DNA from: a virus
Direction: 5' to 3' (one strand)
DNA: 32,188 nucleotides
Virus record (IMG/VR): IMGVR_UViG_3300049719_000171
Span: 1 to 32,188 of that record
This document shows, piece by piece, positions 1 through 32,188 of the stretch. The notes beneath the pieces were generated by a model. It ran no database searches. It saw nothing but the letters and a program-made list of their open reading frames with translations, and was not told the DNA's origin. Made by a program: the position numbers and the translations under genes. How positions within the stretch are numbered: position 1 is the stretch's first letter; each line of letters starts with the position of its first letter.

Positions 1-122
1 TCACCCAGTCAATTGCCCAAACGTCACGCGATCAAACGCGTGTCGACGGTCGAAGCGCGGGTGATGCCACCCGCGGGTTCGTGCCAAGGTCATCCCCTCG
101 TGGGATGACTATTTGACTTTCA
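1..122 (-). repeat. Terminal inverted repeat, left copy
   Basis: Bases 1-122 are the exact reverse complement of 32060-32181. The repeat is clearly GC-richer than the rest of the window and packed with hairpins: stem 25-30 with 37-42, stem 56-63 with 68-75 (loop ATGC), and stem 89-96 with 102-109, followed by TATTTGAC at 110-117. Identity runs to base 1, so the element may extend past the window. Read on the minus strand, the neighbouring tnpB relic runs straight into it in frame and stops at 32-34. Hairpin-rich ends next to tnpB are typical of IS200/IS605-type elements and their guide RNAs, so I infer a transposon end, a small non-autonomous derivative or a structured RNA. The identity is not proven. 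Confidence 0.9.
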
Positions 123-5641: not shown

Positions 5642-6475
5642 GTGATTAGGACATTTCGTTATCCACTTCATCCATCAAAAGAACTTCATTACAACGTATT
5701 GATCTTGCTTATAAATCATTTTTTCGACGAGTAAAAGCTCATGAAACACCAGGTTATCCGCGTTTCAAAGGAACTAATCGTTATCGATCGTTTACAACAA
5801 GGTAAAGTTCTTTTTGGACACATCAAATTTGAAGCAAACGGCAAATGGTTTTTGTCTATTATATGTGATCTTTGTGAAGCTCCTGCCAAAGTAAAATCCA
5901 CTAAAATATGTGGTATCGACGTTGGTATTACACATTTTGCAACTCTTGATAATGGAATTACAATCGAAAACCCTCGTTTTTTTAGGGAAAGTCAAGTAAA
6001 ACTTGCAATTCAGCAACGAAACTTGTCTCGAAAAAAACGAGAAAGCAAATCTCGAAAACGAGCAAAATTAATTGTTGCAAAGATGCATTTGCACATTCAT
6101 AATCAACGACTTGATTTTGCTCGAAAACAAGCATCACAACTTTTTAATGAATTTGATGTAATTTGTTTTGAAGAACTCAACATCAAAGGAATGATAGAAA
6201 ATAATGAAAAGTATTTAGCAAAATCAGTTACAGACGTAGCATGGGGTATGTTCATCGCTTGTCTCAAATCCAAAGCTGAAAATGCTGGGAAGTGGGCGAT
6301 CGGTGTAGATCCTGTTGGAACGTCACAAGAATGTTGTGGGTGTGGAATTATAAAGAAAAAATCACTTTATCAACGAATTCATGAATGTTCTTGTGGAGAA
6401 AATCTTGACAGAGATCATTGTTCGGCAAAAGTTATTAAAGCGCGTGGTCAACGCGTGGTCACTGAAATATTTTAA
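5642..6475 (+). pseudogene. tnpB: TnpB, decayed N-terminus with intact nuclease core
   Basis: Three pieces align with one TnpB. From GTG 5642: IRTFRYPLHPSKE, a typical TnpB start. From about 5689 in another frame: LQRIDLAYKSFFRRVK, then TPGYPRFKGTNRYRSF, ending at TAA near 5804. Then, back in the first frame, the ORF from 5741 holds the rest. In that ORF (244 aa) the RuvC-I motif GIDVGITHFA (Asp60), RuvC-II FEELNIKG (Glu144), a CCGCG...CSCG zinc finger and RuvC-III NLDRDHCSA (residues 222-228) are all present. About 60 residues after PSKE and about 35 before GKVLFG are missing relative to ordinary TnpB. The 244-aa ORF could still be translated, but it lacks the N-terminal recognition half, so I call it a pseudogene. 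No tnpA is nearby. Confidence 0.85.
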
Positions 6476-26736: not shown

Positions 26737-26948
26737 TAGAACATGTCCAGTTCAATTATCGGTCGCCACTCTGCATTCGGCGCCAAACAATCACCATGAC
26801 CAACAATATAGTAAACATACCCATTGTTTTCAACGCGTGACAGTATTTTTACTTCATCGCGTTGTGTACGCCATCGCAATACATCACATATTTCAATCAT
26901 TTTTTCATGTGCATATTCATGCGCACTTACGTCTAATAAAAATTTCAC
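26736..26948 (-). CDS. Small hypothetical protein, 70 aa
   Basis: 70 aa. The GTG at 26946-26948 is chosen: it overlaps the upstream stop as GTGA and has a GGGA ribosome-binding site; a TTG at 26966 is also open. The sequence has a helical N-terminal half (DVSAHEYAHEKMIEICDVLR), then strands with VENNGYVYYIVGHGDCL. No family recognised. It is coupled between the VWA/metallopeptidase gene and the NDT-like gene. Confidence 0.7.
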   Translation of the reverse strand: MKFLLDVSAHEYAHEKMIEICDVLRWRTQRDEVKILSRVENNGYVYYIVGHGDCLAPNAEWRPIIELDMF

Positions 26949-28573
26949 TTTGATTTCCCGTCGCAAGGCATCTTTCGCTCGTCGTTTGCAATGTCACGTT
27001 GTGCATCGTTGTGAGCTTTCACTTGATTGTCAACGTCACGCATTGCATTTTCAAGCGCACCAATCATTTTTTGAGCCTCAGACACCGTGCAGAGTGGATT
27101 TTTCTTCATCGTGTCGCACGTGTTTTTGATCAACGCGTCCTTTGTCGGACCGGGATTTTTGAAATCAATCACTAAATTTGACATTTTTCTTTCTCCTACA
27201 ATGAATATTTTTGTTTCATTCGTGTCAAAAGCAAGTTTGTTGCCTGCCGGCAAAACCCAACCTCGTTTTTTGCGACAACTTTTTGGCTTGGGCGCGTCGC
27301 CGTCGGTGACAATCAACAACGCGTCCCACCTGCCACGATTTTTGGGATCGTTGAACAGTTCGGTGGGTGCGTTGAAATCCGTTCCACCCGTCTTCACGCG
27401 CTTCAACTTCACCTTTGCACCTTTTCGCAGTGTGATCACTTGTTTTCGATCAAGTTCACAATCAAATGGAACGTAATCTACTTCAACTTTGCGCGTCAGG
27501 TTCAATATTTCTGCAATGAAATATGACAACAAATCGTCGCTAACGCTGCCGCTTTGGTCGACCGCGACCAACAACTTTGCGGTGCGGTTTCTTTTGACGC
27601 CTGGATGGTCATAAGGTTGCTTACGATTTAGCTTTTTGATCGTTGAACTGCGCCCACCCGTTGCAAGAGAACCTACGAACTGTTTTAGCGCTTTTCTCCA
27701 GTCAATTGTCCGCGACACCCTTTGACGAATTTCATCGCAAACGGAGGCAGGTATGTTACCCCATCCATTTGTCTGTTGGTCGGCATGCTGAATGGCTTTT
27801 TTGATTATTGACTTCACTTTTGCTTTAGTTCTATCATTAGAACCATCATCCGAGTTGCCGTCTTGCCACTCTGAATGATTGTCGAGCTGTTTTCCTAATA
27901 AACCTTTTTGGAACGTTGCATTGCTTCCTGATGGATCGTCAGAAGCCGAGTTATCACCATTTTCTGTTCCTTCGTCACTTTCGGAACCCTTTTTTCCCTT
28001 AAGACCTTTACCGGGCGAAGAACCTGCACCGGGTTTATTTCCAGCTGTTCCGTCACCTTTTCCACCGTCACAGTTTCCGCTCTCAATCTCTTTTTTTAGT
28101 CTCTCAAAGTACCATTCGCTTGCCTGTAGCGGCGGAAACTTCTTCACCAGTTCGACGAGTGCAGGATCACCTTGAATTACAGTTCCAGGCACCAGCGCGC
28201 TCTTGGGAAGCTGTATGTTTTTGTCATTCGTAGTCTTAATGATTGAATTTACTGCTAAATCAGTCGCATAGTTCCAGACGAGTGCCCACTTTCTGTCAGG
28301 CATTCGAGAAAAGATGTGCTCGTTGATAATGTGATAGAGTTCATGAACAATTACGCCCATGATTTCTTGTGGTTGAAGTGACATGAAGAACTTTGGTGAC
28401 CACAACAATTGTAGCTCGTCAAGTTCTTTGTTGTACAACACGCCCGCAGTTTCAATTGTGTCACACGGTATCTTGTGAATGTTGCGTGAAATTTCGGCGT
28501 AAAAAGGCACGTGCCGTAGCAAGTTCACGAGGTGTTTGTCGAGGTTGAATTCTGTCTCAACTACTTCGTACAT
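26945..28573 (-). CDS. Metallopeptidase-like plus VWA-like protein (DUF2201 type)
   Basis: 542 aa. The N-terminal domain holds a zinc peptidase motif, HELYHIINEH (His77-Glu78-x2-His81), in the arrangement of the DUF2201 putative metallopeptidase family. Residues about 165-245 are a low-complexity Gly/Ser/Asp linker. The C-terminal domain is VWA-like, with the MIDAS metal site DQSGS (Asp339, Ser341, Ser343), a TGGTDF Thr and VTDGD. In bacteria such proteins usually work with a MoxR-type AAA+ ATPase as chaperone or maturation pairs; no ATPase is visible in this window. TGG-TATAAT ends 7 nt before the ATG. Confidence 0.87.
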   Translation of the reverse strand: MYEVVETEFNLDKHLVNLLRHVPFYAEISRNIHKIPCDTIETAGVLYNKELDELQLLWSPKFFMSLQPQEIMGVIVHELYHIINEHIFSRMPDRKWALVWNYATDLAVNSIIKTTNDKNIQLPKSALVPGTVIQGDPALVELVKKFPPLQASEWYFERLKKEIESGNCDGGKGDGTAGNKPGAGSSPGKGLKGKKGSESDEGTENGDNSASDDPSGSNATFQKGLLGKQLDNHSEWQDGNSDDGSNDRTKAKVKSIIKKAIQHADQQTNGWGNIPASVCDEIRQRVSRTIDWRKALKQFVGSLATGGRSSTIKKLNRKQPYDHPGVKRNRTAKLLVAVDQSGSVSDDLLSYFIAEILNLTRKVEVDYVPFDCELDRKQVITLRKGAKVKLKRVKTGGTDFNAPTELFNDPKNRGRWDALLIVTDGDAPKPKSCRKKRGWVLPAGNKLAFDTNETKIFIVGERKMSNLVIDFKNPGPTKDALIKNTCDTMKKNPLCTVSEAQKMIGALENAMRDVDNQVKAHNDAQRDIANDERKMPCDGKSK

Positions 28574-30408: not shown

Positions 30409-30416
30409 TATTTATG
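30409..30416 (-). promoter_or_regulatory. Candidate late promoter box
   Basis: Minus strand CATAAATA differs by one base from the T4 late -10 box TATAAATA and lies 18 nt upstream of the ATG of the 351-aa gene. The gp55-like factor in the window could read such a site. A single short match in AT-rich DNA is weak evidence. Confidence 0.35.
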
Positions 30417-30433
30417 TTCGAGACTTTGACAAT

Positions 30434-30462
30434 AATAATCATCCGGCGGATGATTATTTGAC
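30434..30462 (+). repeat. Hairpin resembling the terminal-repeat end
   Basis: A perfect 11-bp stem, AATAATCATCC / GGATGATTATT, with loop GGC, followed by TTGAC. GGATGATTATTTGAC here differs by one base from GGATGACTATTTGAC at 103-117 in the left terminal repeat, and both follow a TCATCC arm. It is probably another end, or a relic, of the same hairpin-bearing mobile element, left in the intergenic space between the 351-aa gene and the 30538 gene. Confidence 0.6.
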
Positions 30463-31745: not shown

Positions 31746-32150
31746 CGTATAGACACGTAAACCCTGATGGTAGTTTGGGCCCCATTATTGGGCGATGAAA
31801 TTAAATTAGATCATACAATAACTCTCTCAAGCAATCTTACAATTACATCAACAGCCATTAGTGGCTCAAAAAAAGATATCAATCATATTCAAAATATGTT
31901 ATTGTTTAACGAAATTAAACTTCCTTGGAATATAATTGAACTGGTTGCTCAAGAAACATATTATGGAACTAAATTAATAGCAATCTTTTGTCAAAACGCG
32001 CAGCAATTACACGTGCTTGCAACATCCAATGTTAGTGTGTGGGTGCACTGTGCAATTGCTGAAAGTCAAATAGTCATCCCACGAGGGGATGACCTTGGCA
32101 CGAACCCGCGGGTGGCATCACCCGCGCTTCGACCGTCGACACGCGTTTGA
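31742..32150 (+). pseudogene. NPDGSLG gene, frameshifted and fused into the terminal repeat
   Basis: ATG 31742 gives MTYRHVNPDGSLGPIIGR and a stop at 31798. The neighbouring frame (open from 31767) reads PLLGDEIKLDHTITLSSNLT and continues as plausible protein (DINHIQNMLLFNEIKLPWNI...ETYYGTKLIAIFCQNAQQL). Removing one C from CCCC near 31780 joins them as NPDGSLGPLLGDEIKLDH. The ORF then runs into the 122-bp repeat at 32060 and ends with the same repeat-encoded tail (ESQIVIPRGDDLGTNPRV...) as the left tnpB relic. So the gene is probably both frameshifted and cut off at its 3' end by the element. Confidence 0.6.
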
Positions 32151-32181
32151 TCGCGTGACGTTTGGGCAATTGACTGGGTGA
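32060..32181 (+). repeat. Terminal inverted repeat, right copy
   Basis: Exact reverse complement of 1-122, with the three hairpins in reverse order. The window continues 7 bases beyond it (ATTTGAA). The left and right flanks differ (tnpB relic versus the NPDG gene), so this is a dispersed element present in at least two copies and not one locus read twice. See the left copy for the proposed nature. Confidence 0.9.
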
Positions 32182-32188
32182 ATTTGAA

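Follow-up and report, generated by a model that had tools for sequence, protein, structure and literature searches.

The repeat and its boundaries

The window, which is the whole 32,188-base virus record analysed here, encodes among other products a gp25-like baseplate protein, a baseplate-wedge-like protein, and glycosyltransferases, and each of its ends lies within one copy of an inverted repeat. A repeat search across the window recovered the arms described in the first-pass annotation (1–122 and 32060–32181) as 122 nt of inverted, 100% complementary sequence with zero mismatches, a match far above chance, and found no other long repeats. The sequences beside the two copies are distinct, as had also been claimed. 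The description of the repeat as rich in hairpins is likewise supported, as the + strand folds better than all 200 shuffles (z = −4.5 as RNA and −4.8 as DNA).

The left arm is cut by the window start at base 1, and the right copy runs on with ATTTGAA to position 32188; contigs of 32,209 and 89,731 bp carry on through these same bases. The repeat is thus longer than the 122-nt arms, which show only part of it. At its other side, the true boundary of the right end (RE) of the underlying insertion sequence lies after ACTATTTGAC, at position 117 on the left and 32065 on the right. Because other copies diverge exactly at these positions, the five outer bases, TTTCA (118–122 and 32060–32064), are matching flank. 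TTTCA opens both RE flanks, which carries a probability of about 2% as a coincidence among the RE flanks compared; the match may reflect chance or, possibly, a target preference.

Copy A (1–117, + strand) comprises an RE including the region 3′ of tnpB, a putative omegaRNA scaffold. It ends at the TTTGAC boundary common to all copies, and its remainder lies beyond the left contig end. Copy B (32065–32188, − strand) is the same RE in reverse, is identical to G002:3-126 and G003:89605-89728, and is halted within the element by the contig end. Folding places a terminal hairpin of the form GTCATCCC-CTCGT-GGGATGAC at 89–109 (+ strand).

Copies in the metagenome

Three further virus contigs (G001–G003), each from metagenome 3300049719, contain a match to a 54-base core of the repeat, always no more than about 130 bases from a contig end. 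Five RE copies from this metagenome are 100% identical over their overlap, have unlike flanks, and diverge exactly at GTCAAATAG / CTATTTGAC. Identical copies at five differently flanked sites bear out the recent spread that the first-pass annotation had offered as one meaning of the perfect identity. Every full-identity RE copy found in 3300049719 sits at a contig end that falls 100–127 bases inside the element. Two further contigs (L033 and L035) terminate in a matching left end (LE), 158 bases in, reaching the start of tnpB, and one LE-ending contig also starts inside a 5′-truncated tnpB. The count for this metagenome is therefore at least five RE sites, with two LE ends found. No single contig spans copy A or copy B, both of which are visible as their RE portion. 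The assembly breaks at the window ends because the element is multicopy and its identical copies are beyond the assembler; contigs that halt 100–127 bases into a repeat are expected assembler behaviour with collapsed multicopy sequence, in agreement with the suggestion that the repeats are why the assembly ends here.

Restored reading frames gave no convincing pair between the LE flanks of L033 and L035 and the five RE flanks, and the disrupted ORF next to the right-hand copy (31767–32063) has no relatives among viral contigs. Searches of isolate phage and plasmid collections with the RE returned no match. The sole match in a genome contig (Oceanobacillus, L039) was rejected because it lies in what is apparently a normal chromosomal gene, where the remainder of the RE is absent; the number of matches of this type is close to that estimated by chance for the pattern.

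The complete element and its insertion site

Relaxed pattern searches identified complete copies in virus contigs of two other metagenomes (L030 and L031). Both elements are 1,293 bp in length, match over the 1,290 bases compared, and share a layout in which TTTAT is followed by an LE hairpin, a gene for a 354-amino acid TnpB, the RE hairpins, and a terminal TTTGAC; the element start reads TTTAT followed by GTTCGAATTGACAAGAATAGTCATCCCCTCGTGGGATGAC. Over its last 110 bases, the RE of L030 agrees with window positions 1–117 at 107. Of the three substitutions, two affect both partners of a single base pair, which goes from C-G to U-A, while the remaining one converts C-G to U-G. The TnpB matches Cas12f1-like_TNB (PF07282) above the cut-off and OrfB_IS605 (PF01385) weakly, below the cut-off; RuvC and zinc-finger regions are present, and the motifs GIDRGL, LEDL, and HADFNAA can be read by eye. 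Both full copies are devoid of tnpA. Subterminal hairpins, rather than terminal inverted repeats, occur at LE and RE, with the GTCATCCC/GGGATGAC palindrome at both ends, an arrangement by which IS200/IS605 elements are recognised. The palindrome of the terminal RE hairpin recurs at the LE of L030, L033, and L035, and this hairpin is likely the one recognised by TnpA.

The sequence TTTAT stands immediately 5′ of every LE-type start read. When the L030 flanks are joined without the element, a 101-codon open frame with a stop at its end is restored, and no target duplication is seen. An intact homologue of the interrupted gene, 66% identical over residues 1–97, is present on contig 3300049719_000097, and the DNA alignment of the joined flanks with this contig crosses the junction without a gap, as expected of an empty site. 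The restored frame and the gap-free homologue therefore indicate insertion of the element 3′ of TTTAT with no target duplication, the mode of insertion of IS200/IS605 elements (PMC7290912).

Taken together, we conclude with high confidence that the repeats are neither genome ends nor a free-standing RNA but the REs of two oppositely oriented copies of an IS200/IS605-family insertion sequence, which carries tnpB and has proliferated in a tailed phage with contractile-tail genes. It is proposed that an HUH/Y1 TnpA moves the element as single-stranded DNA by recognising its hairpins. The 3′ part of tnpB and the RE would then give rise to an omegaRNA that finishes with ~16 nt derived from flanking DNA, and TnpB would cut empty sites adjacent to TTTAT such that a copy is restored there and the element persists. 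Faced with identical copies, the assembler ends contigs inside them. Recombination between the two inverted copies, which had been suggested as a means of flipping the intervening 32 kb, is possible in principle.

The putative guide RNA

The reRNA bound by ISDra2 TnpB consists of the 3′ end of tnpB, the RE, and ~16 nt of flank (PMC8612924). By analogy, the window repeat corresponds to the region that yields the guide RNA in TnpB elements. Hairpin 2 (48–85, + strand), which has an ATGC loop, is a putative omegaRNA stem and covaries: among four distinct copies, 5 of its 15 pairs are changed on both sides and 98% of cells are paired. Overall, 94% of pair cells are standard and six pairs are changed on both sides (four distinct, related copies). 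Six two-sided changes were reached by 2 of 500 shuffles, and slid controls gave at most two; nearly all of the changes fall within hairpin 2. This covariation is support for, not proof of, a TnpB guide RNA. The production of an omegaRNA and its guidance of cleavage are predicted from the known systems, and on the ISDra2 model (PMC8612924) the ~16-nt guides would be the flanks that follow the REs of copy A (118–133, + strand) and copy B (32049–32064, − strand). Of the functional RNA raised by the first-pass annotation, it is the coverage of a guide-RNA region and the covariation of one hairpin that stand, whereas the transcript itself is presumed. An Rfam search at gathering and permissive thresholds gave nothing credible, with three sub-threshold hits at chance level, and the tRNA/tmRNA search found none.

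A tnpA-bearing relative and mini-elements

A 725-bp relative at G003:85688-86412 encodes, on the opposite strand, an intact 138-amino acid Y1 transposase (Y1_Tnp, PF01797, E = 2e-33). Its LE and RE are of the same type, and its tnpB is reduced to the 3′ part. Consequently, TnpA may be supplied in trans to the full tnpB copies. The contigs also contain shorter derivatives. In the window, a 47-bp mini-element (30416–30462, + strand) follows TTTAT (30411–30415) and joins an LE-like start, one hairpin, and the RE-like end ATTATTTGAC; a mini-element similar to it lies at G001:19032-19087, and another with an LE-type end at G003:50531-50578. In a ~108-bp mini-element located just 5′ of a gene (G001:22171-22278, minus strand), a 43-nt guide-RNA core is unchanged and both end hairpins have decayed. 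There is a slim chance that some short derivatives are live, in that this mini-element could supply guide RNA in trans to phage TnpB proteins.

The abundance of such derivatives bears on the reading of the window copies themselves, which could instead be non-autonomous, RE-containing minis of a few hundred bases, internally deleted and moved in trans by TnpA. Minis are common in the contig set, from the 47-bp solo hairpins through the ~108-bp copy to the 725-bp tnpA copy, and five RE ends were found against two LE ends. However, the LE contig ends in 3300049719 enter the 5′ sequence of tnpB and halt there, as expected if full copies were collapsed, and the window RE differs from the RE of the complete element at just 3 of 110 bases. 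We therefore regard this reading as unlikely and favour full tnpB-carrying copies.

Other tnpB sequences are also present in the window. A decayed remnant with a RuvC-I-like motif (GDTIGVDLGIKTFVTISDG, read by eye in the frame) flanks copy A at 123–400 (− strand); a BLAST comparison with two TnpBs gave no match. A second TnpB (5741–6475, + strand, 244 amino acids), whose N-terminal half is apparently missing, belongs to a different family and is 26% identical to the L030 TnpB. No RE-like hairpin occurs in the ~35 bases between it and the next gene.

The host phage

IMG/VR classes the window record as linear without end repeats, a class that is often a fragment. The sole relatives of its 612-amino acid baseplate protein in the phage collection, at ~27–30% identity, belong to a 484-kb uncultured phage, Flavobacterium phages of 160 kb, and a 190-kb Microcystis phage. 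Based on gene content and these relatives, the window most likely represents part of the genome of a larger phage with a contractile tail. The 484-kb phage (LR756508.1), which also provides the best match for the baseplate protein, contains nine places similar to the TnpB of the element. A 542-amino acid protein (26945–28573, − strand) matches phrog_1314, labelled HNH endonuclease (E = 2e-48); by eye it looks to be of metallopeptidase/VWA type (HELYHI and DQSGS motifs), and the PHROG label may mislead.

The promoter-like motif TTGAGANNNTGNTATA occurs seven times over the four contigs (window 30514; G001:16736; G002:29672; G003:33, 357, 1435, and 82054), mostly directly 5′ of ATG, as compared with an estimated ~0.02 occurrences expected by chance. 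This motif is probably an early phage promoter, and the sharing of so rare a sequence suggests that the four contigs are probably from one phage or close relatives; two or more related phages may have contributed contigs to this metagenome. A second motif, AACATAAA, which is found beside the hairpins, was considered as a phage late promoter. That reading was rejected because near the hairpins the motif is the reverse complement of TTTAT|GTT at element starts, and because its other occurrences share no hairpin context.

The position of the repeats at both contig ends invites two further explanations. A chimeric inverted-end assembly artefact, the condition under which the first-pass annotation would have been overturned, accords with the fact that both ends fall within repeats. 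It is very improbable, as the flanks differ, independent copies occur in three other contigs of 3300049719 and in three other metagenomes, and complete copies were recovered elsewhere. A linear viral genome with terminal inverted repeats, of the sort that protein-primed viruses have, would also show perfect inverted repeats at both ends; this reading, and with it the earlier suggestion of a functional genome end, is hardly credible given that further bases, shared with other contigs, lie beyond the right copy, that the repeat lies at five or more sites and within complete internal elements elsewhere rather than at ends alone, and that the IMG/VR class and gene content indicate part of a larger phage.

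Relationship to known systems

The tnpB-carrying insertion sequence adds an example to an established class of mobile DNA rather than defining a new one. As in ISDra2, an IS605-group element with TnpA and TnpB, tnpB is followed by a hairpin-rich RE, a pentanucleotide marks the left boundary, and the flank would supply the guide. In contrast to ISDra2, the pentanucleotide is TTTAT rather than the TTGAT that serves as the ISDra2 TAM, the full copies carry tnpB only and reside in phage contigs, and the RNA and cleavage are predicted. L030 and L031 resemble the tnpB-only (IS1341-like) IS200/IS605 elements in consisting of LE, tnpB, and RE without tnpA, although here the contig set includes a relative that has tnpA and ends of the same type, and that may mobilise them in trans. 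Finally, the short copies resemble PATE-like IS200/IS605 minis (PMC7290912) in possessing just the element ends and a hairpin, but some have shrunk to 47 bp, in which one hairpin links a start of LE type with an end of RE type.

A striking feature of the window is thus ordinary mobile DNA, which warns against taking perfect inverted repeats at virus contig ends for genome termini, as they can be the ends of insertion sequences. If the ~108-bp derivative at G001:22171-22278 did provide a guide in trans, it could lead to RNA-guided regulation or the exclusion of rival phages. Full tnpB elements, a tnpA-bearing relative, minis that retain the guide core, and single-hairpin minis all occur in one phage contig set, which offers a natural case in which to test the spread of TnpB elements among phage genomes.
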